From a virus: DNA of 64,000 nucleotides. Position 1 is the stretch's first letter, and the number at the start of each line of letters is the position of its first letter. Of this stretch, positions 882 to 63,217 are shown one piece after another. Below the pieces are notes generated by a model that saw only the letters and a program-made list of their open reading frames with translations, was not told the origin of the DNA and did no database searches. Position numbers and translations under genes: made by a program. The stretch covers positions 45,454 through 109,453 of IMG/VR virus record IMGVR_UViG_3300023192_001558. One strand, written 5' to 3'.

Positions 882-914
882 AAGAGGATGCGTAATAGCA
901 TCCTCTTATGCCGT
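882..914 (+). terminator. Stem-loop terminator with TATGCCGT tail
   Basis: AGAGGATGC pairs with GCATCCTCT across a short loop, and TATGCCGT follows at 907-914. The element lies just after the stop codon of the gene ending at 875. It is the first of a set of hairpin plus octamer elements in this window. Confidence 0.8.
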
Positions 915-929
915 CGCAGCTACTTTTAG

Positions 930-940
930 ACCTACATCAT
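930..940 (+). promoter_or_regulatory. Candidate phage promoter, ACCTACATCAT variant
   Basis: ACCTACATCAT differs by one or two bases from the ACCTAYATTAY element found upstream of other plus-strand genes. It lies 37 bp before the ATG at 977 and directly downstream of a terminator. Confidence 0.45.
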
Positions 941-976
941 TTAAAAGAGATTAACCTATTACTAAAGGAAACTATC

Positions 977-1093
977 ATGGACTTCTCATTATTAGATTTC
1001 ATTTTCTACATTGCCTTTATGTCTATTCTGGTCGCGCTTCTGTATCGCGATGCTATTATCCCTACAGTCATGAACTGGTTTAAACGAAAGTAG
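977..1093 (+). CDS. 38-residue single-span membrane peptide
   Basis: A very small gene: MDFSLLDFIFYIAFMSILVALLY... is almost entirely one transmembrane helix, followed by a short tail ending in Lys/Arg (FKRK). The start is ATG 977, preceded by AAAGGA with good spacing. A longer in-frame start at 908 lies inside the upstream terminator and is unlikely. The stop codon is part of the following hairpin. Candidate and terminator flank it, so it may be its own transcription unit. Function unknown. Confidence 0.55.
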   Translation: MDFSLLDFIFYIAFMSILVALLYRDAIIPTVMNWFKRK

Positions 1094-1120
1094 GTATCGT
1101 CTAGATACCTACCCCGCCCT
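1091..1120 (+). terminator. Stem-loop terminator
   Basis: TAGGTATC (1091-1098) pairs with GATACCTA (1104-1111). CCCCGCCCTTTTAT follows. It begins at the stop codon of the 38-residue gene and lacks the TATGCCGT octamer. Confidence 0.6.
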
Positions 1121-1157
1121 TTTATAAGAAACATTACATTATTAAATAAGGACAGTT

Positions 1158-2114
1158 ATGTTTATAATTGTTATTAAGCAAGAGTTTAGAAATCAGATTC
1201 AAACGCGTTACATCACAACAGATCAGCTAAAGACCACCGCTAATAAAAAGCACCCTTCTATGGTGCAGCTTGAGATAGATGGTAACAATGTTAATATCTT
1301 AGATCTTGACGGTGATGTGAACATTAGCATCTACACGGCTACCGGGATGAAGTTAAATGAAATAACCTACACGGATAATACTTCATCTGGACTACCAGAA
1401 TCAATCCACTTCTCACCGGATGATCCTTATCTAGATAAACCATTTGAAGGTAAAGACCAACCCTTCCCTGAACCGCTTAAATACATAGAGACACTTCAAG
1501 AGACATTAAACTCATGTCTGTTAAGTCGTTGGGATGAACCCCATGCATTCTTTAGGGGGTCTTATTCCCTAGATGTACCTATGTTGCGTAAAATAGTTGC
1601 TTCAGTATTTATCGAAGGTGTGGATAGAACCAGTCAGCATTTAACTACAGCGAAGTGTCTATTAGCTAACGTGACGAAACTGATTGAGCTACTGCAAGAT
1701 ATAAAAGAAGGAAGGCGAGAAAGTCACTTAATATTAAACGATGGATACTGGATCAACCCCGCCATACATGCTAGGGTTAAATTCCCACCGTGGTTAACTC
1801 ACAATCTTGGTACGCTTATTAAGTTAGAGCAGGATAAATTATCGGCAATTACTTCTGATAAGTTAAACGGCATTAGTGTATATACGGCTGATATAGAGTT
1901 TATCAAACGTGCATCTTTATCTGATAGAGATCGCATCTTCTATGGCGGTATGTGGTTTATTGACAAAACTAGCAATTTTAATGATAACACGTTTAAGTCA
2001 ATAGTAGACGATCATCAAAAAGCAGTAATGGCTGATAATGATAAAATTCTAACACAGTTAATTGAGTTAGATGAGATTAAAACTAATTTGAAATCTTACA
2101 TCAACAACAATTAA
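1158..2114 (+). CDS. Conserved-looking phage protein, unknown
   Basis: 318 residues, soluble, acidic to neutral. The N-terminal ~80 residues look beta-rich (VQLEIDGNNVNILDLDGDVNIS), followed by a mostly helical part with few hydrophobic stretches. ATG 1158 follows AAGGACAG. The stop codon is the TAA of TAACGGCATA, so the gene runs straight into the convergent terminator shared with the hydrolase gene on the other strand. No catalytic motif or family is recognised. Confidence 0.65.
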   Translation: MFIIVIKQEFRNQIQTRYITTDQLKTTANKKHPSMVQLEIDGNNVNILDLDGDVNISIYTATGMKLNEITYTDNTSSGLPESIHFSPDDPYLDKPFEGKDQPFPEPLKYIETLQETLNSCLLSRWDEPHAFFRGSYSLDVPMLRKIVASVFIEGVDRTSQHLTTAKCLLANVTKLIELLQDIKEGRRESHLILNDGYWINPAIHARVKFPPWLTHNLGTLIKLEQDKLSAITSDKLNGISVYTADIEFIKRASLSDRDRIFYGGMWFIDKTSNFNDNTFKSIVDDHQKAVMADNDKILTQLIELDEIKTNLKSYINNN

Positions 2115-2160
2115 CGGCATAGGTGAGAGGGTTATCCCTCTCACCTCTTTACTCTTCTTT
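2114..2160. terminator. Bidirectional stem-loop terminator between convergent genes
   Basis: GGTGAGAGGG (2122-2131) pairs with CCCTCTCACC (2136-2145). On the plus strand a T-rich run (TCTTTACTCTTCTTTTTT) follows. On the minus strand the hairpin is followed by TATGCCGT (complement of 2114-2121). The genes on either side end at 2114 (+) and 2149 (-), so each strand can use it. Confidence 0.85.
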
Positions 2161-3003
2161 TTTGCTTTGAATATGCGAATAGAGACGAGAACGCCCACTG
2201 CAATAATTACCTTGATTTATCCCCGTCAGATAATGACGATTCAACAGATGACCTCCTAGGTCCCTCACATACTGCTCTCCACAGATACGTGCTTGATAAT
2301 GCTTAGCACCTATACGGTACACGTAATCCTTTTCATTACCAAAATGCTCTACCATGGGAACCTGAGGAAACTCATCGTGCGCCCCGGCAATAGTAAAGAA
2401 TTCTACATTGTTTAATTCAAATCCGTAGCTCTGTAGTATCTTAGCCACATTAGATAAGATGATAGCACCCTGAGAGTGTCCTATTATTCTAATAGGCTTA
2501 CCTGATAATACGGGATAGAATAAATGCTGAGCCATAACCCGTGCGATGGGCGTCAGGCTGTCTGTAGCCCTCCCTATAACGCTTTCTACCAAATCACGAT
2601 ACATTCCCTTGCTCGGGTTGTAAAGGCCCATTACAGGGCGATTGAGGAGCTTAGATAGTCCATGGAGATTTACATCGAAAACTTCTTGATTCGTCATGAT
2701 ACCGTTAATGAAATACCAGTGCTCATCATGTTTATTAAAATCCACGATAGGCATGACCTCGCCTTTATAGACAGGCATAGCAAAGAAGCGATCTAAGATC
2801 TTTGTTCTACTGTCCCCGGTAACTACAATAGCCAAAGCTAACTTAACCTTACTACGGCGTTCTACCTCTTTAGTGATAGCAGTACCTTCACTGCCGAATT
2901 CTGGCACAGGATGACCTACTGGTGAGTTGATATACTTGAGATAGGGTAACTCACTAATAAGCAAGATAGTCTCTTTAATAATGTTTGCAATTAACTTAAA
3001 CAC
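2149..3003 (-). CDS. Alpha/beta-hydrolase-like protein (GHSQG)
   Basis: 284 residues from a GTG start at 3003, chosen because AAAGGA precedes it at good spacing. The upstream ATG at 3039 has no ribosome site. Residues 175-179 are G-H-S-Q-G, the nucleophile elbow of alpha/beta hydrolases (lipase/esterase type), preceded by a strand-like KPIRII and followed by the helix AIILSNVAKIL. A His-containing GGHLLNRHY segment near the C-terminus could supply the catalytic His. The acid is not obvious. The N-terminus is hydrophobic and may be a membrane or signal segment. It is the last gene of the minus-strand fibre cluster, so a role in host-surface modification or lysis is possible but inferred. Confidence 0.65.
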   Translation of the reverse strand: MFKLIANIIKETILLISELPYLKYINSPVGHPVPEFGSEGTAITKEVERRSKVKLALAIVVTGDSRTKILDRFFAMPVYKGEVMPIVDFNKHDEHWYFINGIMTNQEVFDVNLHGLSKLLNRPVMGLYNPSKGMYRDLVESVIGRATDSLTPIARVMAQHLFYPVLSGKPIRIIGHSQGAIILSNVAKILQSYGFELNNVEFFTIAGAHDEFPQVPMVEHFGNEKDYVYRIGAKHYQARICGEQYVRDLGGHLLNRHYLTGINQGNYCSGRSRLYSHIQSKKEE

Positions 3004-3057
3004 AATAGCGTCCTTTTGATAACAAATACAACAATACATACGATTGTTTACACCGTG

Positions 3058-3093
3058 ACGGCATAAATGGGACCCTATAAAAGAGCCCCATTT
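3058..3093 (-). terminator. Stem-loop terminator with TATGCCGT tail (minus strand)
   Basis: Read on the minus strand, AAATGGGG pairs with CCCATTT and is followed by TATGCCGT (complement of 3058-3065). It separates the gene ending at 3105 from the hydrolase gene. Confidence 0.75.
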
Positions 3094-3104: not shown

Positions 3105-3635
3105 TTACTGTTCAATGTTTGTCAAATAGACTTTGTTATTCTCAACATCAACGAGTAACTCAAATTGACCTTTCCCTGTTAAGCTTACCGACGCATCCTC
3201 GGTCGTTGCATCTAGATGGAAAACTGTTCCACCGTCAGATGATACAACATTGACTTCACCAGCCGTGTCCCACACATTGTCAATTTTAACGATCGCGTTT
3301 TGTGCGATGTCTTCCATATCTAACGTGATCGTTCCCGTACCTGATCCAATTCTTTTAACAACATGGTAGACTGCAAAACCAGATAGGGTGACGTCGCCGT
3401 CTGTGTTAACGACGTTAAATGTACCGTGGGGGTCGATCGCACTAAAGTGAGCTTCTAGGATTCCATCGTAAGACGAACCGATGGTGAACATGTTTCCTTC
3501 ATCGTCTTTCGAGTAAAGGATCTGATCTTTAACGTTAATGGCAATACCTGCCACATTAATTAATTCAGGTTCAGGTACTGCACCGGGGGTCGTACTGTAA
3601 GGAAAACCTATTGGCCCTAAGCGGAATGTTGCCAT
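3105..3635 (-). CDS. Small tail-fibre-type protein with shared N-terminal module
   Basis: 176 residues. Residues ~20-75 (AIxVKDQILYSKDDEGNMFTIGSSYDGILEAHFxxxDPHG pattern) match the N-terminal module of the proteins at 5029-6021 and 15508-16098. I take this to be a particle-attachment or trimerisation module of short fibres. The C-terminal ~100 residues are beta-rich and Gly/Thr/Asp-rich (GSGTGTITLDMEDIAQNAIVK), as in fibre tips. ATG 3635 has AGGAG six bases upstream. It is probably a short tail fibre or fibre tip. No exact family is recognised. Confidence 0.6.
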   Translation of the reverse strand: MATFRLGPIGFPYSTTPGAVPEPELINVAGIAINVKDQILYSKDDEGNMFTIGSSYDGILEAHFSAIDPHGTFNVVNTDGDVTLSGFAVYHVVKRIGSGTGTITLDMEDIAQNAIVKIDNVWDTAGEVNVVSSDGGTVFHLDATTEDASVSLTGKGQFELLVDVENNKVYLTNIEQ

Positions 3636-3775: not shown

Positions 3776-3807
3776 TAAATAGTGTACGATATTAAAAGGT
3801 GGTAAAT

Positions 3808-4944
3808 GTGGGAAGAGGTATAGATTTAACGGGACGGGAGTTCGGTAAATTAACCGTAGTAGATCAGGCTCCTAATAAGGAAGGTCAGAGGGGTAATTGG
3901 TGGAATTGCTTATGTGATTGTGGTAATGCGAAAGTTGCTTCGGCTAAAAGTCTAAATGCAGGCGATACCCAAAGCTGCGGTTGTCTAAATAAGAACGATC
4001 TAATAGGTAAGGTCTATGGGAGGTTAACCGTCAAAGCAGAGGGGGTTGAAAAGAAAGGTGATAAACGCACATGGGTTTGTGAATGTAGTTGTGGATCAAC
4101 TACTACTGTTACGACGAGTGATTTAGTAACCGGTCATACGCGCAGTTGTGGATGTTTACAGAAGGAGCGGGCGAAAGAAGCGAATAAGACGCACGGCTAT
4201 TCACGTAGACGCCATCCCCTCTACGCACGTTGGCTAGGTATGAGAAATCGATGCAATAATCCAAATGACGATTATTACGACAACTATGGAGGTAAAGGTG
4301 TAAAAGTCTGTAAGCGATGGGACTCATTTACTAACTTCTTAGAAGATATGGGCGAGTGTCCGGAAGGTCATACTCTGGACCGTCGCGACAACGATGGCGA
4401 CTATACGCCTGAGAATTGTAGATGGGCAAGCTCATCCGAGCAGGCCATGAATAAAAGCACGACGGCTATGGTTGAATACAATGGAGAACTTATAAAAAGG
4501 AGAGAGTTAGCCAAACGTTTTGGCATTGATCCGGATAGACTACGTCAACGGCTAGAGATGGGATGGTCTGTTGAAAAAGCATTAACTGTCGAAATACCAC
4601 CCCAGGTAAAATGGAGAGTGGTTGTTGGAATAAACATAGTAACAAGGACAATATATTTTAGCAACAAGCTATCCAGGTTCGCTAAAGATCATAATCTTAA
4701 TCTTAATATTCTTCGTAACAATGCCACCCGCAGGGGATTAGCAGAAGGAGAGTGGGCGGTTAAACGTATCGAGGATGATACACCTTGGAATGATTTCAGG
4801 GGATGTAGCGGGATACCAGAGGACGTTATCTTAAAGCAAGCTGATGAACCGGATATTATCTTTTCTAACGCGAGAGAGGCTTACAGGTACCTTGAGCGGA
4901 GTTCTCTGTTAGATAAGGAGTATACATTAAAAGTATTTGAATAA
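3808..4944 (+). CDS. HNH homing-type endonuclease with duplicated zinc-finger repeats
   Basis: 378 residues from GTG 3808, which is preceded by AAGGTGG. The GTG at 3799 overlaps that site and is less likely. Two tandem ~55-residue repeats open the protein, each starting D-L-x-G-x-x-(F/Y)-G-(K/R)-L-T-V and ending in cysteine clusters (CLCDCG 34-39 with SCGC 56-59; CECSCG 91-96 with SCGC 114-117), which look like zinc-binding DNA-recognition units. Residues 188-207 (H-T-LDRRDNDGDYTPENCRW) are the HNH-type nuclease signature of phage endonucleases. The C-terminal ~160 residues probably bind DNA. It is a lone plus-strand gene inside a minus-strand fibre cluster, as expected for a free-standing mobile endonuclease. 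Confidence 0.85.
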   Translation: MGRGIDLTGREFGKLTVVDQAPNKEGQRGNWWNCLCDCGNAKVASAKSLNAGDTQSCGCLNKNDLIGKVYGRLTVKAEGVEKKGDKRTWVCECSCGSTTTVTTSDLVTGHTRSCGCLQKERAKEANKTHGYSRRRHPLYARWLGMRNRCNNPNDDYYDNYGGKGVKVCKRWDSFTNFLEDMGECPEGHTLDRRDNDGDYTPENCRWASSSEQAMNKSTTAMVEYNGELIKRRELAKRFGIDPDRLRQRLEMGWSVEKALTVEIPPQVKWRVVVGINIVTRTIYFSNKLSRFAKDHNLNLNILRNNATRRGLAEGEWAVKRIEDDTPWNDFRGCSGIPEDVILKQADEPDIIFSNAREAYRYLERSSLLDKEYTLKVFE

Positions 4945-4979
4945 CGGCATAAAACCATGGGGCTTTACAACCCCATGGT
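4944..4979. terminator. Bidirectional stem-loop terminator between convergent genes
   Basis: ACCATGGGG and CCCCATGGT form a 9-bp stem. On the minus strand it is followed by TATGCCGT (complement of 4944-4951), which overlaps the plus gene's TAA stop. On the plus strand a T-rich stretch lies further on (4990-5005). Confidence 0.85.
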
Positions 4980-5028
4980 CATGCTGACTATGTTTCTTTT
5001 TTTGTTTCTAACCTAACTGATCAGAATC

Positions 5029-6021
5029 TTAAAATGAACGACCATAATCAAGATTAGCTGCTAAGTCAGCTACTAGGCCGTTAGCATGGCTGATTGCTTG
5101 TAGACGTGCATCGTTAACTGCTTTAGATGAAGCTACGTTAGTTTCAGATGCAGAGTCAACTGCGCTAGAGATAGCAGACTTGTCTACTTTAAGTGCAAGA
5201 CCAGCGTCAGCGTATGCTTTAGCGTCAGTCAATGCAAGTAGAATTGCATTTGAAGAAGCAACGTTTGTTGAGCTGTTAGACGTGATTGAATCAGAGATAG
5301 ACGTTTTGTCTACTTTGGTATCCAAACCATCGTTAAGCTGAGTGATGCTTGCTTTAGTTGCAAGTGAAGACGTAATAGCAGCGATATCGCTGTCGTTGTC
5401 TGTCAATGCAGCAGCAAGTTCTTGAAGTGTATCAAGCGCGGCTGGTGGAGCGCCGCCAAGGATGTCAGACTTAACTGCATCAGCGTAAGCAATCGCTGCT
5501 GCTTCAGCATCAACCGCACGTTGGTGAGCAGTATACGCAGCCATAGATGATGCGTATTGAGTAGAGTTTTGTTCTACAACTGAGTCGCTGATACCGTAGT
5601 TTTCAACGTTACCTAGACCAACGTCAGCTTTAGTTAGGTTAGAAGTGTCTTGTTGCGCTTGAGCAATGTTAGACTCAGCAGTTTCAAGACGTTGACCGAT
5701 TTTCAACAGGGTGTCTAAGTCAGCAGCTAGTGTGCCACCTTTAAGACCATTGATTTGGCTATCGGTGTAGGTATTAGCTTGAGCGATCGCGTTAGCTTGT
5801 GCAGCGGCGATGTCAGCTGTGTAGTCACGACCTAGCGTGATTACATTACCTTCGTGGTCTTTAGTGAAGATCTTGCGATCTACTAAGTTAAGTGCAATTG
5901 CACCTTCTTCCAAGTCAGCAGCTAGCGGCGCTGCGCCTGAGGTGATTGAACGGTCAAATTGAATCTGACCAAGATCAATGGCTACGTTTTCCGCGCCTGA
6001 AGTCGAGTTGACTGTACTCAT
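5029..6021 (-). CDS. Tail fibre protein with Ser/Ala-rich repeats
   Basis: 330 residues. The N-terminal ~70 residues (IQFDRSITSGAAPLAADLEEG, then NLVDRKIFTKDHEGNVITLGRDY) carry the module shared with 3105-3635 and 15508-16098. The rest is repetitive: at least three variants of D/S-x-x-(S/E)-x-T-N/Q-(V/Y)-A-S-S-x-A separated by ~40 residues, with many Ala-rich heptad-like stretches (AKAYADAGLALKVDKSAI). This is the pattern of trimeric phage fibre shafts. No catalytic or chaperone domain is seen at the C-terminus. Start ATG 6021 has TAGGAG upstream. Role in host adsorption is inferred. Confidence 0.75.
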   Translation of the reverse strand: MSTVNSTSGAENVAIDLGQIQFDRSITSGAAPLAADLEEGAIALNLVDRKIFTKDHEGNVITLGRDYTADIAAAQANAIAQANTYTDSQINGLKGGTLAADLDTLLKIGQRLETAESNIAQAQQDTSNLTKADVGLGNVENYGISDSVVEQNSTQYASSMAAYTAHQRAVDAEAAAIAYADAVKSDILGGAPPAALDTLQELAAALTDNDSDIAAITSSLATKASITQLNDGLDTKVDKTSISDSITSNSSTNVASSNAILLALTDAKAYADAGLALKVDKSAISSAVDSASETNVASSKAVNDARLQAISHANGLVADLAANLDYGRSF

Positions 6022-6136: not shown

Positions 6137-6790
6137 TTAAGCACTTACACCAAAGAATGCAGCACGTGCATCCCACGCAGTGAAATAGAAGGTTTCCCAT
6201 TCTTCTTTCGTTGCAAGGACTACTGTGTTACCATTCTCATTCTTAAATGGAATAGCCTGCCACTCAGCACCTGCCGCTTCGCGTCGTTCAATCAAACGAT
6301 CGATAGACGTCCAACCGTTTTGATCGTTTTCAGTAACGCTACACACGGTACCGTTGAACTCAAACGCATTCAGCTTACGCCAAGATGTATACTTGGTATC
6401 GCCGGTAAAGTAGTCTTTAAACTCACCAGGTTGAGGCATCGCCGTGAAAGGGATGTAGTCCTTTAGTGGTTGTTTGAAATCTTCTTGCTCAGACGTTAAC
6501 GTGTCGTTATACGCTGACGCTTCTTTGTTGTACGCTTCAATCTCAGCGTTCTTTCTGTCAGTGGCGAGAACTTGGTTAACCCACGTTTCTTTCAAGAACT
6601 CTTTAAACTGATTAAAAGCAGCTTCAAGGCGAGATGGTGCTACGTTGTTAGCCATTAGACGATACAAGTAATTGATATCGTACGTTAAATGACTTAAGTC
6701 GTAAGTAGCTTCTGTAACAACACCTTCGTCGTCGGTTGATTCAGGTGTTATGATCCATTGACTCAGATCAGGTTTAGTAGGACGCGACAT
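6137..6790 (-). CDS. Fibre-associated protein, possibly a fibre assembly factor
   Basis: 217 residues. It has an N-terminal SxWIITPES-type segment, a central helical charged region (about residues 55-105), and a C-terminal segment W-x-A-I-P-F-K-N-E-N-G-N-T-V-V-L-A-T-K-E-E-W. Position after the large fibre gene and small size fit a fibre assembly or tip-attachment protein, but that is inference from context. Its ATG overlaps the stop of the upstream gene (TAATG), indicating translational coupling with the 948-residue fibre protein. Confidence 0.5.
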   Translation of the reverse strand: MSRPTKPDLSQWIITPESTDDEGVVTEATYDLSHLTYDINYLYRLMANNVAPSRLEAAFNQFKEFLKETWVNQVLATDRKNAEIEAYNKEASAYNDTLTSEQEDFKQPLKDYIPFTAMPQPGEFKDYFTGDTKYTSWRKLNAFEFNGTVCSVTENDQNGWTSIDRLIERREAAGAEWQAIPFKNENGNTVVLATKEEWETFYFTAWDARAAFFGVSA

Positions 6791-9636
6791 TAGCGTTTCT
6801 CCTTAGGTAAGAATCCTAGCGGTCTATGTGTGCGAGACAGACCACGGGCGACTCGATAGTCGTTTAAGTTAGTCATGAAAGTGATGTATGGATAATACTG
6901 CATGGCGTTATCATCACCTACATCGTTGGTCGGATCTACTTGGAATGTTGAATGTAAAATGCCAACATTATTATACACTGACCCATCTTCGTAGTTGACA
7001 CTATAGCCATCAAAATCCGTAGGGTTCCAAGTAGGAACCGGCGCGCCTCGAGTAACAAACACAATACCATTCATAACTGGGTTAGGGCAGTTCTTAAGTA
7101 TAAAACGATCGTTAATACCAAGACCGTGGGTAACTGATGTGGATAGATCAATTTCGGTAATCGATTTTGGATCGTCATCATACTTTAACTCGCGGAAAGT
7201 CAAGCTACCATAGGCTATGCCTTCAACCAAATCCTCACTTAGAAATGGTAAGAATTTAACACAATCACCAAACGTCTTCATCGTGACGTTACTATGACGT
7301 ATTACATCGTTAGACCAAGATGTTTCAAAGGCAGAACCTTCATCTTTGTTATACGTCATGATAGCTCGCTCTAGCGCGTGTTTGCTATATATAACCGTAC
7401 TGTTGTAAGGTCCGATCTTACCGATAAGTGTAGGTATCAACGTGCTTTTCTCATCGGCACGTAGTACGAACACATGACCCAAATCAGCACTGGCCAATAC
7501 ACGACGCTCTGCAAAAGACATAGGCTCCATTACGCTGGACCCGTAAGTATACTCCATCAACATAACGGTAGACGCAGGCATGATAACCGAACCTGCATTA
7601 TCGTTTGCATTAAAGCTAGCAGTATACGTGTTGTTATTAACCCAAGAGTCACCTAAATCCTGAGAGGTTGATAAGTGATTGTTTCTCTTAATAACACGGC
7701 GAGTAAGCGGCTGTGTTTTATATGTGTCATCGGGGATTACCGGCGACCATATTAAACCCGGCACGTAATCTACACCATAGCGATCTACCATATCCACAAG
7801 ATTTGCTGGATTAGCAAACACTTCAGTAACCGGTAACTGCTCTAATGAATAAGGCGTCTGTATAGGCATCATGATAATTAAATCATCGCCTACATCCCAA
7901 CCTTCATAGACCCGAGTTCCCTTTTCTGAAAATACTGATCTAGAACTGTTAGTAAACGCACTACCTTCAAATAGAGTAGGACTTACATAAGACGGCAGGT
8001 AATAATAATAATCATCACGATCATCGCGGTTGATCTTAACAGCCGGTACGTATTGATTTTTATTTACGTTATAAACCCAACACCCACCTTGTTTGACCGT
8101 CTGACCATCTTCCTTGGTAATCTTGCCTGCGGGAGGTGCTGTGAACTCCCCTTCAACGATATCGCTACTAGTAAGCGTGGTTCTGACAAATGCTAGTCCT
8201 TTAATGCGTTCCCATCCACGATGACGACCACCCATGACATCAATGCCAAACGCATTAGCGTCTACATCAACACCATGTGCTGAGATACGTAGATCTTGCA
8301 TTTGCCAATCGTAAACACCGTCGTAGGTATATTGCTGGGGGTGACCACTTGCGCCGTATTGAATGTTACCGCCGTATTTACTACGTATTCTTGAACCGCC
8401 AGACTCAAAACCTAAAAAGCAATCAGCAACGCTAGTTGCTAGTTTAGCCGTGGCCGTTGAATCCCATGTAGAACCGCCGCTATTAGTCTGTGCATGAAGC
8501 AGCGTTCCCATAGCGTTATAGAACGGATGATAAGCACCTTGGTTCATTCTTGTAACGCGAGCAATGCCCATCCAATAAATAGAACCTATCGCACGATTAC
8601 TAGTATGTTCTGGGTTAGTGATTGCTATTCCGCCATCCACACCAGGTACTCGATCGTTAGCATTAATCTGAAAGAAATAACGACCGCTGTTGTAATCTAG
8701 TGGCTGGGGGTTAGAACCTTGCGCGGTAAGTCGAATTGGCACTTTCGTGCCACGGTTACGAATGATATTATTTGCATAATCATCAAAACCGCTATTATAA
8801 CGCCAGTCGTCTCCGACCGAAGATATAGATCTAAATCGATACTGCCATTGGAATACGCGATCGCCATCACGATATATGTTGTTATTAGGATTGTTCAAGA
8901 ACGAATCTTTCTCTTCCTCGGACATCAATGCCCAAGTATAACCACGCCCCCATGTAACCGTATCCCACGTACCAAATGCACTATAGCTCTGTGGCATTAC
9001 CCCGTCGGTATAGTTTTTAGATCCGGTGCTATTACCGTCGTACTGAACATTGCCTAACGGATAGACCGCAGGTACCTGTTCGCCCTCATCGCCTATCTCG
9101 ACAAGGAAGACCTCCATCCCCACAAGGTCTTCACGCGAGACCATGTCTACGGGTTTAAAATACGTAACGTCGGTTAGCAGCATCCCTGAAGGCGCGTCTA
9201 AGACACATATGTAGATATCATTACCAACCACTACGTGATCGCCAACATCATAGTCTTTAGTTGTTGTAGTAGAAGTCTCTACTTCCGCCGTAGGGGCTGG
9301 CGGTAACATAATAGTGTTGCGGTTACTAGCCCCCACTAGCGCTTGGGTTATACGCAGACCATCAACATTATAGATAGGGTAACCAGTATCGCTCTCGCCG
9401 TGTTGTGTTGAATCACCCGACCCACGTCCCATTCTAAACCCATTAGGCACGCCGCCGTTTATAGTACACCAGATACCTTGATTTACTACAACGTTAGACG
9501 CATCTACATAATGCCTGCCTGGTTCAATATAACCAGAACATGCAAACGTACTTCTACGTTGCTCACGCAGAGCTTCAAACTCAGCAATTGTCATACCCCG
9601 TCCTGCATCAGGAAGAAGGTTACTTAATTGAGTCAT
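6790..9636 (-). CDS. Large virion fibre/baseplate protein, paralogue 1 of 3
   Basis: 948 residues. Shares with the next two genes an N-terminal S-G-Y-I-E-P-G-R-H-Y motif (~residue 35), a (P/L)PxAPTxxxETxTxTT stretch, GDHVVVGNDIY at 132-142, NNIYxxDGxxFQWQYR, NQGAYHPxYNxMGT, SGHP(Q/M), (S/D)AHG near the middle, and a C-terminal RPLGFLPK. These are large secreted-type, beta-rich proteins with no cytoplasmic enzyme motif, as expected for tail fibres or baseplate-attached arms. phiKZ has a similar set of paralogous structural proteins (gp131-gp135, from memory). Start ATG 9636 is preceded by GGAG. Confidence 0.75.
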   Translation of the reverse strand: MTQLSNLLPDAGRGMTIAEFEALREQRRSTFACSGYIEPGRHYVDASNVVVNQGIWCTINGGVPNGFRMGRGSGDSTQHGESDTGYPIYNVDGLRITQALVGASNRNTIMLPPAPTAEVETSTTTTKDYDVGDHVVVGNDIYICVLDAPSGMLLTDVTYFKPVDMVSREDLVGMEVFLVEIGDEGEQVPAVYPLGNVQYDGNSTGSKNYTDGVMPQSYSAFGTWDTVTWGRGYTWALMSEEEKDSFLNNPNNNIYRDGDRVFQWQYRFRSISSVGDDWRYNSGFDDYANNIIRNRGTKVPIRLTAQGSNPQPLDYNSGRYFFQINANDRVPGVDGGIAITNPEHTSNRAIGSIYWMGIARVTRMNQGAYHPFYNAMGTLLHAQTNSGGSTWDSTATAKLATSVADCFLGFESGGSRIRSKYGGNIQYGASGHPQQYTYDGVYDWQMQDLRISAHGVDVDANAFGIDVMGGRHRGWERIKGLAFVRTTLTSSDIVEGEFTAPPAGKITKEDGQTVKQGGCWVYNVNKNQYVPAVKINRDDRDDYYYYLPSYVSPTLFEGSAFTNSSRSVFSEKGTRVYEGWDVGDDLIIMMPIQTPYSLEQLPVTEVFANPANLVDMVDRYGVDYVPGLIWSPVIPDDTYKTQPLTRRVIKRNNHLSTSQDLGDSWVNNNTYTASFNANDNAGSVIMPASTVMLMEYTYGSSVMEPMSFAERRVLASADLGHVFVLRADEKSTLIPTLIGKIGPYNSTVIYSKHALERAIMTYNKDEGSAFETSWSNDVIRHSNVTMKTFGDCVKFLPFLSEDLVEGIAYGSLTFRELKYDDDPKSITEIDLSTSVTHGLGINDRFILKNCPNPVMNGIVFVTRGAPVPTWNPTDFDGYSVNYEDGSVYNNVGILHSTFQVDPTNDVGDDNAMQYYPYITFMTNLNDYRVARGLSRTHRPLGFLPKEKR

Positions 9637-9653
9637 GAACTTTACTCCAAGTT

Positions 9654-9675
9654 AGGGGCTGGATATCCAGCCCCT
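9654..9675 (-). terminator. Perfect stem-loop between paralogous fibre genes
   Basis: AGGGGCTGG and CCAGCCCCT with an ATAT loop. It lies between the stop at 9685 and the start at 9636 on the minus strand. It is not followed by a T-run. It may be a weak terminator or an RNA processing or stability element. Confidence 0.5.
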
Positions 9676-9684
9676 TTAGTTTAA

Positions 9685-12549: not shown

Positions 12550-12568
12550 GGATAAATACTCCAAAGTT

Positions 12569-12590
12569 AGCCGGGGTTATAACCCCGGCT
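12569..12590 (-). terminator. 22-bp perfect palindrome between fibre paralogues
   Basis: AGCCGGGGTT and AACCCCGGCT flank a central TA, giving a perfect 22-bp inverted repeat between the stop at 12601 and the start at 12549. It occupies the same place as the hairpin at 9654-9675 but has a different sequence, so hairpin position rather than sequence is conserved. Confidence 0.55.
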
Positions 12591-12600
12591 ATAAGTTTAA

Positions 12601-29991: not shown

Positions 29992-30004
29992 CAGGAGGTG
30001 ACGT

Positions 30005-49105: not shown

Positions 49106-49110
49106 GAAGA

Positions 49111-49160: not shown

Positions 49161-49173
49161 ACCTATATTATCC
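49161..49173 (+). promoter_or_regulatory. Candidate phage promoter ACCTATATTATCC
   Basis: ACCTATATTATCC lies 43 bp before ATG 49216, right after a terminator. It contains TATATTA of the phiKZ-type early element. Confidence 0.6.
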
Positions 49174-50390: not shown

Positions 50391-50410
50391 GCCTCTTCCA
50401 ACTATGCCGT
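50374..50410 (+). terminator. Stem-loop terminator with TATGCCGT tail
   Basis: AGTTGGAAGGGG pairs with CCTCTTCCAACT with one mismatch. The stop TAA of the upstream gene is in the loop. TATGCCGT is at 50403-50410. Confidence 0.85.
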
Positions 50411-54686: not shown

Positions 54687-57600
54687 ATGTCTTTATACGA
54701 CGCGTTCTATAGAGAAGTGGGTGTACGCACCCCTCAACAGCTTGTTAACCCCAAGACGGCCCCCATTAACACATTGACACTGCCACGTGACAGCATCATC
54801 CATTACCTACCTACCACGTCTACCGACATGGGGATAGATGCGCGTGATCCATTGTTATTAAACCATGACAGTGAAGTCTTCATTCACCACATCGAAGCGC
54901 TTAAAAGTGAATTAGGCACACCACGATTAAACCGAGGTGCCTATAAGCAACACGTGCAAAACTACCATAAGCGTTTTAGAAAGCACCGTTTACTGCGTCG
55001 CTTAGCTAGCGGTTTACGCGATCCACGTAGTTTAATAGTAAGCAACTACGCATCGTTAACTAGCGTATATCAATATCGTCAACACGCACTCGCAACATAC
55101 TACCGCTATTATAACCTACACACTACGCTTTATGCTGAGATCATCGCATTAGCTAAAGAGACCGACCGTCAGCACTTCATCCCGGTTACGTTACCAAAAG
55201 TATTACCTGAGCGTGATGATTTAGATCGTGCAATCGGTAAAGTCAAACCAGGTGATATGCCGCGTTCTTTATTAACCCAGTTTAAAGAGAATGCTGCATT
55301 GACGTATCTAGACCTTTACCTGTGGTTAAGCGGTGAGGCGGGCGTTACTTCATTAAGCCATACACCGGTTGAAGTCTTAAAACGCATTAACCTGGTATTT
55401 ATTGAGTCAGGCCAATTCAGTGTTTTATCGTTAAGTCATCTTGTCGAATGGATGGAGACGGATAACGATTTAAATGACAAACTCCGTCGTTTCTATATGG
55501 CGATGTTTGAAAAGCGTACAGTAATGGCTGAAAGCGAAGCAGACGATGAAGTCGATAATGCAATTGCTGGCGTACCAGTCGTACCCCCTATTGCTGAACG
55601 TAGAACCCAGGCTATTGTTAGTCAGGCTGATGAACTAGCAGATGCAGGTATCCTATCAGGGGCTGAATATCGCCGCATGGTGAAGCTAGCAGATCAGTTT
55701 ACACGTATACCTAATCCATACGGCGAGGGTACGCTTGAACAGTTAGCTGCACCTGATACTGCGGTGACCATGAGTCAACCTAAAGATACCCTACCTGAGA
55801 TCAAAGGGGTGGTTGACAAGAGTATGTTAAATACCACCGTCAATGCATTCCATCGAGAATACATTAAAAACGTCATGCCTAAAGACATTGCGGCTATGAC
55901 ACTAGGTATTCAGCAAGCAGGCGTAGCAGTAACAGACTACCAAGTTCAGCGTGTTGTTGATGCGGTAGATAAATACGACATGTATACGGTTAAGCTAACG
56001 CCTGTTAAAGGTCAACCCTCAACGATTCGTTTTAAACTTCCTGTAGTCGAAGAAGATGGTACATTCCTAGCGGGCGGCGTGAAGATTCGTTATCGTACGC
56101 AGCGGGCAGACGTACCCTTGAGGAAGACATCTGCTTCAACGGTTGCGTTAACCAGTTACTACGGTAAGACGTTCGTTGAGCGTTCAGGCAAAGTAGTTAA
56201 CGACTATGGCAAATGGTTAGTTAAACATTTAACCCAAATGACACTGGCTGACAATAGTCCACTATCTAAAGTGGCGTTTGCTGACGTCATGGTAACCGAT
56301 GTTGTATTACCACGTGGCTACACTGCCATTGCTAAGGAGATACGCACCTTTACCTTTAAGGAAGTATTGTTTACTTGGGATTATCCTAATCGTGGTGAAG
56401 TATTAGGTATTAACGACCTTAGCGCCTACGAGCAAGATAACCAAGTCGTTATCGGTAAACAAGGCAAATACGTTTACACAATGGATCGTAGTGAGATGGT
56501 GTATCGTCACCACAACGACTCAATGCAGCCTATCGGTGAGCTTTACGAAGTTATCAACATTACTGATAGTCAGCCACCTATTGAAATGGCTAGCGTTAAA
56601 GTGTTTAGTAAACACATCCCAGTGGGTGTAGTGCTTGCCTTTAAACTCGGTATTGATAAGTTGATCAAACGTTTAGGGGTAGAGGTTAAACGTGTACCGG
56701 TAGGCACACGTGTTCAACTGGCTCCTCAGGAATACAAGATTGTATTTGCTGATGAAACCTTAGTCGTATCACGCGCTGATCGCGAAGCCAGTTTGATCTT
56801 AGGTGGGTTTGTTAGTTACAAGAACGCAATTAAGCAATATAACCTTGAGGATTTCAATCATCCAGATGTCTACTTCAATGTGATTAATGAACAAGGTCTA
56901 TCTGCCCGTTTCATCCAAGAGATGGAGTTGATGGATACCATGTTCGTTGACCCTATCACTGAGGAGATTCTAACTGAGATGGGTGAGCCAACTACATTTG
57001 AAGGGTTGTTGTTTAGAAGTGTAGAATTAGTAGCAACTGATCAACATCCTAAAGAGATGGATAGTGCGTTCATGCGGCTTCGTGGCTATGAGCGTTTCTC
57101 AGGTACGGTCTACAAGCAGATGGTTGAAGCGTTGCGAGAGTATCGTGCTAAGCCTATGTTGTCTAAAGCCTCAATAAACTTAAACCCTAAAGCGGTATGG
57201 TTGAATGTTCTGCAGGATGAGTCGACGGAGTTGGTAGAAACCTCTAACCCTGTCCATAATCTAAAAGAACACGAGACCCTTACCTTTGCAGGACAAGGCG
57301 GTCGTTCTACTAAAACCATGGTGCGTCGTTCACGGATGTTCCATAAAAACGATCTTGGTGTTATTTCAGAGTCTACCCCTGATAGTGCCAAGGTAGCTAT
57401 CACCACGTATCTAACACCTGATGCTAAGATACGTAACTTGCGAGGTATGACAGACAGCTATACTGAGGGGGATGGGCCTGCTAAATACGTAAGTAGTGTC
57501 TCGTTGTTATCGCCAGGTGCGGATAGAGATAGTTCTAAACGTACTAACATGACATCGGTTCAGCACTCATCAGGTATCCAAGCAGTTGGATATACTAGTA

Positions 57601-58658
57601 CACCTGTCCGTACGGGTTATGAGAAAGTAATGGCACATCGTGTTGATGATCTATTTGCCTATACTGCAAAGCAGGATGGTAAGATTACAGACAAAGATGA
57701 TCGCACAGTTACTATTACTTATAAGGATGGAACTGAAGTCACTAAACCTATTGGCACGCAATATGCGAAAGTGGCAGATGGTTCAGCCAAACACGTACTT
57801 AAATGTGATCTAGAAGTAGGACGCAGTGTTAAAGCAGGGGACGTCATTACGTACAATGATGCATTCTTTGAACCCGACTTCTTTGATCCTAAACAGGTGA
57901 GCTATAAAGCAGGTGCAATGGCTAAAGTGGTACTGATGGAAACATCGGATACGTTAGAGGATGGGTCAGCGATTTCACCTCGTTTGTCTAAAGCGCTAGC
58001 AACACCTACGGTCAAAACTCGTGCTATTTTAGTACGCTTTGATCAACAAGTTATTAACCTTGTTAAAGTAGGCGATACGCTTGAGGCTGACGGTATTTTA
58101 TGTACCATTGAGGATGGCCTTACGGATGACGGTGCGTTATTCGATGAAGAGACGTTAGCAAGTTTACAAGCGCTAGCGGCTAATAACCCAAAGGCCAAAC
58201 TTAAAGGTGAAGTTGAAAACATCGAGGTCTTGTATAATGGCGATAAGTCAGATATGAGTCCTACGTTGCAAACCATCGCCAATCGTTCAGATAGACAACG
58301 CAGTCAACTGGCTAAGCAGTATAAAGATGGTCGTGCTACTAATGGTCGTGTTACCGAGCCTGTAATCATTGAGAAACAACGCATTGAGTTAGATCATGCA
58401 TTAATCATTGTTACACTATCAACGCTAGCCTCTCACGAAGCTGGTGATAAATTGGTATTAGGTAATAACCTGAAATCGGTCACCTCTCGTGTATTGCAAG
58501 GTACACATGAGACCAAAAGCGGCACGCCTATCGACATGATTTTTGCATACCAGAGTATCTCTAACCGTATCGCTTTGGCTACAGAAATCATCGGAACAAC
58601 CAACACAGTACTTGGTGTGATATCCAAGCAAGCACTGGCACTGTATGAGGGGGAGTAA
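54687..58658 (+). CDS. RNA polymerase beta-like subunit (phage virion-type)
   Basis: 1323 residues, start ATG 54687 with AAGAGG. Matching to bacterial beta is clear in the C-terminal half: SVSLLSPGADRDSSKRTNMTS resembles PFLEHDDANRALMGANMQ, VRTGYEKVMAHRVDDLFAYTA resembles the LVGTGMER region, and GDKLVLGNN at 1253-1261 resembles GDKMAGRHGNKG with the His replaced. SGTPIDMIFAYQSISNR follows (bacterial GTPVDIVLNPLGVPSR). It ends ~45 residues later, so the final beta anchor (GGQRFGEME region) is missing and should be encoded elsewhere, as with phiKZ gp178/gp149 (from memory). The operon continues into head genes. Confidence 0.9.
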   Translation: MSLYDAFYREVGVRTPQQLVNPKTAPINTLTLPRDSIIHYLPTTSTDMGIDARDPLLLNHDSEVFIHHIEALKSELGTPRLNRGAYKQHVQNYHKRFRKHRLLRRLASGLRDPRSLIVSNYASLTSVYQYRQHALATYYRYYNLHTTLYAEIIALAKETDRQHFIPVTLPKVLPERDDLDRAIGKVKPGDMPRSLLTQFKENAALTYLDLYLWLSGEAGVTSLSHTPVEVLKRINLVFIESGQFSVLSLSHLVEWMETDNDLNDKLRRFYMAMFEKRTVMAESEADDEVDNAIAGVPVVPPIAERRTQAIVSQADELADAGILSGAEYRRMVKLADQFTRIPNPYGEGTLEQLAAPDTAVTMSQPKDTLPEIKGVVDKSMLNTTVNAFHREYIKNVMPKDIAAMTLGIQQAGVAVTDYQVQRVVDAVDKYDMYTVKLTPVKGQPSTIRFKLPVVEEDGTFLAGGVKIRYRTQRADVPLRKTSASTVALTSYYGKTFVERSGKVVNDYGKWLVKHLTQMTLADNSPLSKVAFADVMVTDVVLPRGYTAIAKEIRTFTFKEVLFTWDYPNRGEVLGINDLSAYEQDNQVVIGKQGKYVYTMDRSEMVYRHHNDSMQPIGELYEVINITDSQPPIEMASVKVFSKHIPVGVVLAFKLGIDKLIKRLGVEVKRVPVGTRVQLAPQEYKIVFADETLVVSRADREASLILGGFVSYKNAIKQYNLEDFNHPDVYFNVINEQGLSARFIQEMELMDTMFVDPITEEILTEMGEPTTFEGLLFRSVELVATDQHPKEMDSAFMRLRGYERFSGTVYKQMVEALREYRAKPMLSKASINLNPKAVWLNVLQDESTELVETSNPVHNLKEHETLTFAGQGGRSTKTMVRRSRMFHKNDLGVISESTPDSAKVAITTYLTPDAKIRNLRGMTDSYTEGDGPAKYVSSVSLLSPGADRDSSKRTNMTSVQHSSGIQAVGYTSTPVRTGYEKVMAHRVDDLFAYTAKQDGKITDKDDRTVTITYKDGTEVTKPIGTQYAKVADGSAKHVLKCDLEVGRSVKAGDVITYNDAFFEPDFFDPKQVSYKAGAMAKVVLMETSDTLEDGSAISPRLSKALATPTVKTRAILVRFDQQVINLVKVGDTLEADGILCTIEDGLTDDGALFDEETLASLQALAANNPKAKLKGEVENIEVLYNGDKSDMSPTLQTIANRSDRQRSQLAKQYKDGRATNGRVTEPVIIEKQRIELDHALIIVTLSTLASHEAGDKLVLGNNLKSVTSRVLQGTHETKSGTPIDMIFAYQSISNRIALATEIIGTTNTVLGVISKQALALYEGE

Positions 58659-61064: not shown

Positions 61065-61823
61065 ATGTCGAACATTGCCAAATATAGCTGTACCGCCTTA
61101 GCAGGAACAAATAAGGTAGGTCGCTTAAAAACCGATGAACACGGTTATCGTCAAATGGTACTAGGTGCCTATGACTTTGATAACTCAGCGGGTGCCACGT
61201 ATCCGTTTGAATCAGCCAAATCGCTGTTTGAAAGCTCTAGTAGTTTGATGCGTCGTATTGCTAACGGTCAGTGCCGTGGTGAATATGGTCATCCTAAACC
61301 ATTACCTGGTATGACCAACCAACAATTCCTTGAGCGTATCTTACGCATTGAAGAGTCGGCTATCTGTGTACATTTTAAAGAAGTGTGGATTGATAAAGAC
61401 AATGTCAAGGACGAGAACGGTAAACCTGTTATTGCGGTAATGGGTAAAGTGAAACCGTGCGGACCACATGGCCCAGCGTTAGAACAGCAGCTGAGTAACA
61501 CTGAAGAGAATGTAGCATTCTCAGTGCGTTCGTTGACTAACGACCGTATGGTGGGTGGAAAGCTTAATAAGCATATGAAAGTGCTAGTGTGTTGGGACTA
61601 TGTTAACGAACCAGGTATATCGGTTGCTAACAAGTATCAGGCACCTGCGCTAGAAGGCATTGCTGAAGATATTGAAATTGTACCTTCTATGTTAGATGCT
61701 GTAGAAAGACAGCAGCAACGTAGCGGCGTCTCAATGGAGAATTCAGTAAGCTCTACTATGGTGCGTTCAGAGTTAGGCTGGTCTAAAGTCCAAAACCTAA
61801 ACTTTGCATCGCAGTCCTGGTAA
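61065..61823 (+). CDS. Prohead protease (T4 gp21 / S80-like)
   Basis: 252 residues. G-E-Y-G-H-P at 72-77 supplies the catalytic His (H76), as in the GELxHP motif of phage prohead core proteases. F-S-V-R-S at 152-156 with a hydrophobic lead (NVA) fits the catalytic Ser motif (S153), and the spacing (~77 residues) is similar to T4 gp21. The enzyme cuts scaffold and capsid proteins during head maturation. It follows the upstream gene by one base with AAGGAG upstream, and a TATGCCGT terminator follows. phiKZ gp175 is the analogous protease (from memory). Confidence 0.85.
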   Translation: MSNIAKYSCTALAGTNKVGRLKTDEHGYRQMVLGAYDFDNSAGATYPFESAKSLFESSSSLMRRIANGQCRGEYGHPKPLPGMTNQQFLERILRIEESAICVHFKEVWIDKDNVKDENGKPVIAVMGKVKPCGPHGPALEQQLSNTEENVAFSVRSLTNDRMVGGKLNKHMKVLVCWDYVNEPGISVANKYQAPALEGIAEDIEIVPSMLDAVERQQQRSGVSMENSVSSTMVRSELGWSKVQNLNFASQSW

Positions 61824-61830
61824 CATCATG

Positions 61831-61865
61831 TATAACCCTGCCATTGCGGTAGGGTTATATGCCGT
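61831..61865 (+). terminator. Stem-loop terminator with TATGCCGT tail
   Basis: TATAACCCT pairs with AGGGTTATA. TATGCCGT begins within the stem end (61858-61865). It ends the polymerase-head operon. Confidence 0.8.
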
Positions 61866-61878
61866 CAGGAAATAATAG

Positions 61879-61890
61879 ACCTATATTACC
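61879..61890 (+). promoter_or_regulatory. Candidate phage promoter ACCTATATTACC
   Basis: ACCTATATTACC contains the phiKZ-type early element TATATTAC and lies 37 bp before ATG 61927, just after a terminator. Confidence 0.65.
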
Positions 61891-61926
61891 AGTATGCACT
61901 TACAATACCATTAAGGATAAATATAA

Positions 61927-62439
61927 ATGCAACCACAGCCCTTTAAAGCTACGTTTAATGAGTTCTTTAAAAGCGTCTATCCTGTTAACCTAGGTATAGA
62001 CCCACAACAACGTGGGTTGATTAAAACCTTCTTCTACGTTGGTGGTCTACTATTTAAAAACAGCGCCATTAAAGGCGGTAGTGACGATATCTCCATGGAA
62101 CAGAACGTTAAGACCTTAGCAGATATTCAACAGCACCTGAGACGTTACGGACGTCAATTGAACCGTACATCACATCCGCCTATGACGGGTAAGTTGGGTG
62201 AAACATTTAAAACGTTCCTTTCAAAAGACGTAACACCCGAATTGCCTAAAGGCAAGCCTATGTTAGATTGCTACAATGCCTACGTGGCTGGGATGCTATC
62301 CATGTTAGAAATTCTAACAGAAAGTTCAAGCATCGATAATGAAGACATCGCCATTACCCGCTTTGATATTATCAACGATGACCTCATGGCTAACACAGGG
62401 ATTGAAGCCTGGCACGTACCAGAATGGCCCATGGACTAA
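61927..62439 (+). CDS. Unknown protein under a candidate early promoter
   Basis: 170 residues, soluble, with an aromatic N-terminus (FKATFNEFFKSVYPVN), a basic helical centre (HLRRYGRQLNRTSHPPM) and an acidic end. TTAAGGAT lies upstream. It stands alone between two promoter-like elements. No family recognised. If the promoter is an early one, the product may act soon after infection. Confidence 0.55.
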   Translation: MQPQPFKATFNEFFKSVYPVNLGIDPQQRGLIKTFFYVGGLLFKNSAIKGGSDDISMEQNVKTLADIQQHLRRYGRQLNRTSHPPMTGKLGETFKTFLSKDVTPELPKGKPMLDCYNAYVAGMLSMLEILTESSSIDNEDIAITRFDIINDDLMANTGIEAWHVPEWPMD

Positions 62440-62487
62440 TTGAAATCCATCTGTCTAGTTTATTATCCGACTGTAATTAAAAACACA

Positions 62488-62498
62488 CCTATATTACT
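62488..62498 (+). promoter_or_regulatory. Candidate phage promoter ACCTATATTAC
   Basis: Exact ACCTATATTAC, 99 bp before ATG 62598, giving a longer leader than other copies. Confidence 0.65.
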
Positions 62499-62597
62499 TT
62501 TGTGAGCGTAGAGTGAATAAGACACCTATGTGATAAAAGTACTTAAATCAGAAAACATTGATCCGATCAATCAATAAACAAATAGGAAGACTATAAA

Positions 62598-63149
62598 ATG
62601 GCTGAAGCCCAAAAGAAAAGCCCAATGCAACAATTCGTTCTATCTCAAGCTACAACTGAAGCACTTGAGAAAGTTGCCACTGTTGGTATCGACGCAAAGA
62701 AAATCGAAGCGTCTAACGTTATCACTAGCCATGTTGAATCAGTGTCTAATGGCGTCATTTCATACGACGTACCTAAAGACGTCGTGACAGGTCTACTGCC
62801 TGAAGGCTTAACAATGGAAACCGTTGACCAGGTTGGCGAGTTCCACAAGAAGTGTGCAACAGCACTAGCGCAAAGTGTATCTGAAGTAGGTATCGATGCG
62901 ATGGCGCAGGACAAAGAAGTAGCAACGGTAACCGGTTCATTACCAGTAGGTAAGTACACCAAGCTAGAAGCTACAGTACACCGCTCTAAAGATATCAGTT
63001 ATCCTAAAGATGGCCAACGTGTTACTGAAGCGCGTCCAGGTCACGTAGACCTTAAAGTAACATCAAGCTATGGTAAGAGCTCGTCTAGCCACGTATCAGC
63101 GGTACGTACCCACGCGGCGGCACTAGCTAAGCAGCTATTGTCTAAGTAG
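62598..63149 (+). CDS. Unknown protein, own transcription unit
   Basis: 183 residues, soluble, rich in Val, Ser, Ala and Lys (SHVESVSNGVISYDVPKDVVT, and a C-terminal SSYGKSSSSHVSAVRTHAAAL). A single gene between a strong promoter-like motif and the strongest terminator in the window, so it may be expressed highly. GGAAGA lies before its ATG. No family recognised. Candidates include an abundant virion or DNA-associated protein, with no direct evidence. Confidence 0.6.
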   Translation: MAEAQKKSPMQQFVLSQATTEALEKVATVGIDAKKIEASNVITSHVESVSNGVISYDVPKDVVTGLLPEGLTMETVDQVGEFHKKCATALAQSVSEVGIDAMAQDKEVATVTGSLPVGKYTKLEATVHRSKDISYPKDGQRVTEARPGHVDLKVTSSYGKSSSSHVSAVRTHAAALAKQLLSK

Positions 63150-63172
63150 GGATAGCCTATACGTAAGCCAAG

Positions 63173-63217
63173 GATGGTAGAGACTGTAACGTCTCTACCA
63201 TCTATGCCGGATTCTTT
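63173..63217 (+). terminator. Strong stem-loop terminator with TATGCCGG and T-tract
   Basis: GATGGTAGAGAC (63173-63184) pairs perfectly with GTCTCTACCATC (63191-63202). TATGCCGG follows (63203-63210, one base off the octamer), then ATTCTTTTTTT. It carries both the octamer and a normal T-tract. Confidence 0.9.

Follow-up and report, generated by a model that had tools for sequence, protein, structure and literature searches.

The window considered here, a 64-kilobase (kb) stretch of viral DNA (bases 45454-109453 of the 109,453-base record IMGVR_UViG_3300023192_001558), contains a recurrent element in which a hairpin is followed, directly or after one or two nucleotides (nt), by the octamer TATGCCGT. 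In its general form, a hairpin and then (T)TATG-Y-Y-G-T with Y standing for C or T, the element is probably a hairpin-dependent terminator of the phiKZ-type multisubunit RNA polymerase (RNAP), most likely of the non-virion enzyme (nvRNAP). The element itself, its strand and its place at gene ends, its bidirectional use and its spread are supported by the sequence comparisons described below, and we infer that RNA ends there by termination. The available parts of the literature on polymerases of this type describe how transcription starts and give no stop signal. By its gene content, the window is part of a phiKZ-like phage known from metagenomes, a placement made because of two RNAP genes (47171-48790 and 54687-58658) and several structural families.

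Octamer and hairpin in the window and in whole genomes

A preliminary description of the window had listed eleven exact copies of TATGCCGT and a variant, TATGCCGG, at 63203, each abutting a hairpin. All twelve are present at those positions and on those strands, and each stands behind a hairpin with a spacer of 0-2 nt, a stem of 8-14 base pairs and a folding energy of -15.1 to -23.4 kcal/mol. The sites, and the motifs found on the other side of two of the hairpins, are as follows:

883-914 (+): hairpin 883-906, TATGCCGT 907-914; tandem, after gene 486-875(+), with a + gene next
2114-2145 (-): hairpin 2122-2145, TATGCCGT 2121-2114; convergent, after gene 2149-3039(-), opposite gene 1158-2114(+)
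3058-3092 (-): hairpin 3066-3092, TATGCCGT 3065-3058; tandem, after gene 3105-3635(-)
4944-4980 (-): hairpin with 1-nt spacer 4952-4980, TATGCCGT 4951-4944; convergent, after gene 5029-6021(-), opposite gene 3799-4944(+)
21445-21486 (-): hairpin with 2-nt spacer 21453-21486, TATGCCGT 21452-21445; convergent, after SbcC-like gene 21491-23989(-), opposite gene 20245-21444(+)
25590-25630 (-): hairpin with 1-nt spacer 25598-25630, TATGCCGT 25597-25590; convergent, after gene 25635-26261(-), opposite gene 24577-25590(+)
25636-25642 (+): TATGCGT on the other outgoing side of hairpin 25599-25630, for the + gene
30425-30454 (+): hairpin with 2-nt spacer 30425-30446, TATGCCGT 30447-30454; tandem, at the end of gene 30005-30436(+)
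38253-38292 (+): hairpin with 1-nt spacer 38253-38284, TATGCCGT 38285-38292; convergent, after gene 37283-38248(+), opposite gene 38292-40166(-)
38241-38247 (-): TATGCGT on the other outgoing side of hairpin 38253-38283, for the - gene
49110-49145 (+): hairpin 49110-49137, TATGCCGT 49138-49145; tandem
50375-50410 (+): hairpin 50375-50402, TATGCCGT 50403-50410; tandem, at the end of gene 49860-50390(+)
61833-61865 (+): hairpin 61833-61857, TATGCCGT 61858-61865; tandem, after gene 61065-61823(+)
63173-63210 (+): hairpin 63173-63202, variant TATGCCGG 63203-63210; tandem, after gene 62598-63149(+)

The earlier estimate of about two octamers by chance agrees with dinucleotide shuffles, which held 2.23 copies on average (standard deviation 1.58, maximum 7); none of 100 shuffles reached 11. 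Because matches with one mismatch are not enriched in the window (52, against 51.8 by chance), the exact octamer is taken to be the carrier of the signal in this phage. A second TATGCCGG in the window, at 11210-11217 (-), has no hairpin. It had also been stated that the stem differs at every copy, which is not so: the stems at 25597(-) and 38285(+) are nearly identical, and certain stems are found at other sites in the genome. The CCTACCTCTACC and CTAACCACC stems recur almost unchanged at window 25597, 38285 and 21452 and again in L010, L043 and L046. Such recurring stems, and an inverted one described below, look as if hairpins had been copied or flipped via recombination. Rfam at gathering scores gave zero matches in the window, and no tRNA or tmRNA genes were found there.

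Of the 19 copies of TATGCCGT in the whole record, 18 stand directly behind a hairpin, at a spacing of 0-3 nt, and the last is a tandem duplicate of one of these. The doubled octamer (TATGCCGTCTATGCCGT) lies behind a single hairpin at L010:7633-7649 (+). A longer sequence, G001 (190,650 bases), one of the viral contigs with a relative of the second RNAP subunit (see below), looks like the complete circular genome of the same phage, about 190.5 kb, since it has a self-overlap of 144 bases; this size is under the usual 200-kb limit for jumbo phages. Three genomes from metagenomes were compared: A (G000 plus the remainder of G001, covering 189,453 of about 190,506 bases), B (G004) and C (G007). 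A and B are close relatives, and counts pooled over them are therefore not independent.

In a scan of every k-mer, copies with a hairpin of score at least 20 ending 0-3 nt upstream were counted. TATGCCGT ranks first among 8-mers in A (32/36 behind a hairpin, 0.17 expected) and in B (29/38, 0.19 expected); in C it is third (9/19, 0.07 expected) after a T-run in first place. The enrichment in A is what the preliminary description had proposed to look for in the full genome and in related phages. The four copies in A below the threshold are one with a hairpin of score 19, one tandem duplicate and two with no hairpin, which brings the copies behind a hairpin to 33 of 36, with the duplicate as one further copy.

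Placement at gene ends

Placement was scored relative to the motif strand, with genes called by length in a custom script, which made 64 calls against 67 annotated coding sequences in phiKZ 1-50000 and erred in both directions in a Noxifer stretch. At all 35 intergenic sites in A the upstream gene lies on the motif strand, in keeping with the earlier claim that in convergent regions the octamer follows the hairpin on the side of the gene being ended; three of the 38 sites are outside this count because they fall within called genes or at the edge of a fragment. The downstream gene is on the same strand at 18 sites and on the opposite strand at 17. The upstream gene is likewise on the motif strand at 33/34 sites in B, 20/23 in C, 31/37 in phiKZ, 21/21 in 201phi2-1, 13/13 in Goslar, 30/45 in Noxifer, 16/22 in Eowyn and 10/12 in LucasX. 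Among gaps of up to 300 nt, those containing the element were distributed as follows:

A: convergent 15/19, divergent 0/18, tandem 16/149
B: convergent 13/21, divergent 0/21, tandem 16/150
C: convergent 9/31, divergent 0/29, tandem 9/180
phiKZ: convergent 10/22, divergent 0/24, tandem 18/285
201phi2-1: convergent 12/36, divergent 0/33, tandem 4/133
Goslar: convergent 1/28, divergent 0/32, tandem 11/180
Noxifer: convergent 18/56, divergent 7/52, tandem 13/205

This is the distribution of a gene-end signal, not of a promoter. The preliminary description had raised the alternative that TATG marks late promoters beside terminators, so that the nvRNAP would start right after a conventional hairpin terminator. 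According to the available parts of the sources, the phiKZ nvRNAP initiates at the G of TATG, all four bases of which are needed (PMC4666361), and its late promoters share with the element the tetranucleotide, its place on the non-template strand and the phage group (PMC4666361; PMC12809450). In addition, the next called start lies 60-95 nt from the motif at 12/18 tandem sites in A. Unlike these promoters, however, the hairpin element lies at gene ends, carries the YYGT extension, and is missing from every divergent gap of A, B, C, phiKZ, 201phi2-1 and Goslar, while many convergent gaps contain it. The known late promoter p119L, which reads TATGTAGA, with TATG and then TAGA, has neither a strong hairpin (best score 10.5) nor YYG. 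In several of A's tandem gaps a distinct promoter-like element, ACCTATATT, stands past the motif and ahead of the following gene. Because 15/19 convergent and 0/18 divergent gaps in A hold the element, it is not to be explained mainly as a promoter; this reading, rejected on gene context and on p119L, is highly improbable. ACCTATATT itself, often as GACCTATATTAC, stands tens of nt past several tandem terminators (window 49161-49169 and 61879-61887 on the + strand, and other tandem gaps), and 8-mers related to it are overrepresented ahead of genes in both A and B. It is possibly the promoter of one phage polymerase.

Between convergent genes the hairpin is usually two-sided. A TATG no more than 14 nt from the hairpin on its opposite outgoing side was found at the following proportions of convergent and tandem sites, respectively: A 12/17 and 1/18, B 13/17 and 2/16, C 5/11 and 3/9, phiKZ 11/15 and 6/16, Noxifer 14/22 and 3/8, 201phi2-1 15/17 and 0/4, Goslar 0/1 and 2/12, Eowyn 10/11 and 1/5, LucasX 4/4 and 3/6. 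Pooled over these nine phages the figures are 84/115 versus 21/94 (Fisher p 1.6e-13). The test treats related phages as if they were independent, relies on the simple gene caller for contexts, and excludes both "other" contexts and the one tandem site of SPN3US (0/1). At 13/17 convergent sites in A, no more than 3 nt separate the end of the motif from the stop codon of the opposing gene.

Several observations weigh against a terminator at gene ends as the general rule. The upstream gene lies on the other strand at 15/45 sites in Noxifer, 6/37 in phiKZ, 6/22 in Eowyn, 3/23 in C, 2/12 in LucasX and 1/34 in B. The element is in 7/52 divergent gaps of Noxifer, as delimited by the simple gene caller, and in 1/28 convergent gaps of Goslar. 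Hairpins followed by TTTTT are above background in 9 of the 11 phages that have the element (see below), so other terminators are present too; C has 24 such sites, equal to its number of hairpin-TATGYYG sites, and in A they form a smaller set of 7. The Noxifer exceptions were rechecked against the deposited annotation of 78000-125000, which includes 13 hairpin-motif sites: nine stand behind a gene on the motif strand, none is in a divergent gap, and four (88775, 100806, 109836 and 117316) are on the antisense strand of tandem gaps. Since the sense side of each of these four hairpins is followed directly by TATG (TTATGTCTG, CTATGTTTG, TATGCCGTG and TTATGTTCG), every hairpin in this region has a TATG on the sense side, and the exceptions here are the backs of two-sided hairpins.

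Turnover of sites and spread among phiKZ-like phages

For the comparison of A with B, hairpins in B were accepted at a score of 15 with a spacer of up to 5 nt. A homologous flank exists in B for 37/38 sites in A, and hairpin plus TATGYYG is kept at 34. The octamer is unchanged at 29 of these 34 (98% by base), and the following 12 bases are 64% identical. Among 380 stem pairs compared, 226 are unchanged; a change affects one side in 19 and both sides in 135, and some of these changes are register shifts. Judged from these alignments, stems turn over and the tail is mostly constant. At the other three sites B retains the hairpin with the tail altered to TATGCCTA, TGTGCCGT or TTTTTATACG, the last (site 23) being the ordinary U-tract form where A has the octamer. 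At site 5 the stem is inverted between A and B. Forms between the U-tract and TATGCCGT, with a hairpin, a T-run and GCCGT, were seen at L009:14227 (TTTTTGCCGT, inside a called open reading frame) and L045:8355 (TTTTTTTGCCGT).

Stems that change on both sides yet stay paired fit a signal read in RNA, as does a sense-strand element at gene ends, and an endonuclease or RNA-binding protein could read hairpin plus UAUGYYGU to process or protect the 3' end, with true termination further downstream. Because the motif adjoins the opposing stop at 13/17 convergent sites in A, a true terminator further on would need to be located within the opposing gene. Replacement of the octamer by a U-run in one ortholog also speaks against processing, and a processing enzyme would leave unexplained why the element shares TATG with the nvRNAP start motif. 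We consider RNA processing quite unlikely.

A signal acting on DNA outside transcription, such as an uptake sequence, a recombination site or a replication stop, might be suggested by stems that recur and by the one inverted between A and B. Strand-specific placement at gene ends and absence from divergent gaps argue against it, and it scarcely deserves consideration. The Neisseria uptake sequence begins ATGCCGTCTGAA and has the core GCCGTCTGAA. In Neisseria terminators, the uptake sequence itself forms the stem and continues as CTGAA. These resemble the phage element in having an ATGCCGT string near gene-end hairpins and differ from it in that the phage element has variable stems and no conserved flank. 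A Neisseria uptake sequence was rejected, since none of the 11 window copies continues as CTGAA.

Spread was measured as the number of TATGYYG with a hairpin over all TATGYYG in each phage. In A it is 38/105, in B 35/114, in C 24/122, in phiKZ 37/174 (p 2e-45), in Noxifer 53/148, in 201phi2-1 24/92 and in Goslar 13/173 (p 2e-12); the Erwinia phages SNUABM_54 and RAY have 7/38 (p 1e-9) and 14/42. Eowyn has 25/81 and LucasX 20/31. In these two and in 13 further phages the regions were chosen partly where the pattern had already been seen, by which the counts of all 15 may be inflated. No hairpin-TATGYYG was found in OBP (0/33), EL (0/30), AR9 (0/40), sm033 (0/33), PS1 (0/23), FishSpeaker (0/26), CR5 (0/28), Aphrodite1 (0/28) or HHBS8 (0/17). 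Numbers were near background in SPN3US (2/32, p 0.02), pVa-21 (2/34, p 0.01), N1M2 (2/41, p 0.01), Yong XC31 (1/33), FBKp24 (1/15), D3 (1/31) and T4 (2/63, p 0.02). The figures for 201phi2-1, OBP, EL, SPN3US, AR9 and T4 are for partial genomes sampled from base 1 (80 kb each for EL and OBP). With the pattern read backwards as a control, 0-4 copies had a hairpin in every phage; this control is not perfectly flat, the highest signals being in LucasX (3/27, p 0.001, the lowest p), Goslar (4/166, p 0.007) and A (3/117, p 0.02).

In most positive phages TATG is followed by two positions (+5 and +6) that mostly hold a pyrimidine and then by G and T, after which conservation fades; one phiKZ form is hairpin-TATGTCGT, and in RAY the T at +8 is not kept. 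Where the preliminary description had proposed a phage-specific terminator or 3'-end signal, a signal of this kind is supported by placement at gene ends, strand, absence from divergent gaps, two-sided motifs and stem turnover; the word specific has to be given up, as the class is present in part of the phiKZ-like phages. Pseudomonas phages are split, with phiKZ, 201phi2-1 and Noxifer positive and EL and OBP (over the sampled 80 kb of each) negative, and because phages of one host genus differ in this way the element tracks the phage and not the host. In a tree of relatives of gp123, an nvRNAP subunit, the negative D3 group, Yong XC31 and sm033 lie beside the positive RAY and Goslar. Since the positive phages do not form one clade, either the element was gained repeatedly or one or more lineages lost or replaced it.

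SPN3US, AR9, pVa-21 and FBKp24 have U-runs instead of hairpin-TATGYYG. In OBP a hairpin is followed by TATG and then T-runs (11 of 613 TATG, p 5e-4; L131-L134), and hairpin tails in D3, PS1, EL, HHBS8 and Aphrodite1 have TTTATT-, TTATTT- or CTTTAT-like k-mers, weak in some. Each phiKZ-like lineage may have a terminator tail of its own.

The polymerase and comparison with known systems

In the available part of PMC12809450, gp123 of the phiKZ nvRNAP is reported to bind TATG. Upon transcription of the element, the beta-lobe pocket responsible for recognizing TATG at late promoters could catch the non-template TATG in the elongating complex, which would be held or scrunched, with pausing at the Y-G steps. 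The hairpin would then close just upstream of the hybrid, and RNA would be released about 6-9 nt past the stem, TATGYYGT taking the place of the U-tract. In a convergent gap, a single hairpin flanked by an outgoing TATG on either side would serve both genes. The reason for proposing this mechanism is that terminator and late promoter have TATG on the same strand, and that in the terminator it coincides with the expected position of hybrid and bubble at hairpin closure. That a single TATG reader should serve both start and stop, with the preceding hairpin and YYGT making it stop, is a tentative and rather doubtful suggestion. To our knowledge, no cellular multisubunit polymerase uses one motif reader in both roles.

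Relatives of gp123 from 21 phages were aligned and compared at 14 pocket side chains taken from the available part of PMC12809450; Eowyn, LucasX, OBP, EL and AR9 are outside this alignment, in which HHBS8 is an assumed proxy for EL. Phe151 and His331 are identical in 21/21, and the other pocket residues vary independently of the motif and do not separate motif-positive from motif-negative phages. Since neither these residues nor the gp123 tree tracks the motif, the pocket step has no comparative support. A further difficulty is geometric: with TATG in the promoter register (-3 to +1), the hybrid would still contain the hairpin's 3' arm, and for this reason scrunching must be assumed.

That the polymerase is the nvRNAP rather than the virion enzyme (vRNAP) or the host RNAP, and that it uses its promoter pocket, we likewise infer. 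The terminator might be mainly that of the vRNAP, or be read alike by both phage polymerases, TATG then being unrelated to promoter recognition. The failure of the gp123 pocket to track the motif favors such a reading, and the spread cannot tell vRNAP from nvRNAP because both are phage-encoded. The point on the other side is a weak one: in the available parts of the sources, reading of TATG is described for the nvRNAP only. Assignment to the vRNAP or to both enzymes is somewhat unlikely; it is a good second reading, as is termination by a phage polymerase with no part for the promoter pocket.

Like a bacterial intrinsic (Rho-independent) terminator, the element has a GC-rich hairpin soon past the stop codon and a distal element of about 8 nt, and it is bidirectional between convergent genes. 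At the window sites a stable hairpin shortly past the stop codon is present, but TATGCCGT stands directly behind it instead of a U-tract. The fixed TATGYYGT puts G and C into the hybrid region, and the element would work as a variant of the intrinsic terminator that lacks the defining U-tract. The class II pause and termination signal of T7 RNA polymerase, ATCTGTT, acts on a single-subunit enzyme and needs no hairpin. It is alike in being a sequence-specific stop for a phage polymerase with no long U-tract, and unlike in its sequence, in the dispensable hairpin and in the single-subunit polymerase.

Terminators of hairpin plus TATG are not mentioned among the titles and abstract openings listed, from which absence from print is not claimed. 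In PMC13282480 a term search for "terminator", "transcription terminat", "TATG" and "hairpin" gave no hit, and the element is not described in the available parts of PMC4666361, PMC5312081, PMC10612078, PMC12390700, PMC7598289, PMC7618050 and PMC12809450. A sequence-defined terminator extending from phiKZ to phages known from metagenomes alone is directly testable with purified phiKZ nvRNAP, for which structures are solved. It would allow operon ends to be predicted in many genomes that finders of U-tract terminators may not handle, and it makes it possible to examine whether a promoter-reading pocket has a part in termination as well.

Other features of the window include three tandem genes of 948, 959 and 959 amino acids at 6790-15480 (-), all phrog_14489 (function unknown), with hairpins between them that are without TATGYYG. 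No near DNA match to window 1-25000 was found in the phage collection. The two RNAP genes, which together with several structural families place the phage among the phiKZ-like ones, are:

47171-48790 (+): multisubunit RNA polymerase subunit, phage type; phrog_2986, E 4e-189; relative of the RNAP subunit at phiKZ 187789-189243
54687-58658 (+): multisubunit RNA polymerase subunit, phage type; phrog_3148, E 0; relative of phiKZ PHIKZ178 (181826-186136)

We take both phiKZ counterparts to be genes of the virion polymerase. The gp123 relative, that is, the nvRNAP subunit binding TATG, is at G000 28958-30550, outside the window. Each RNAP subunit of the window matches 294 phage records, and among the matches listed (60 of 294 for each) identity to any named phage is at most 41%. 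The second subunit has relatives on viral contigs at 99-100% and 86-89%, two at 44-45% and two at 39-40%.

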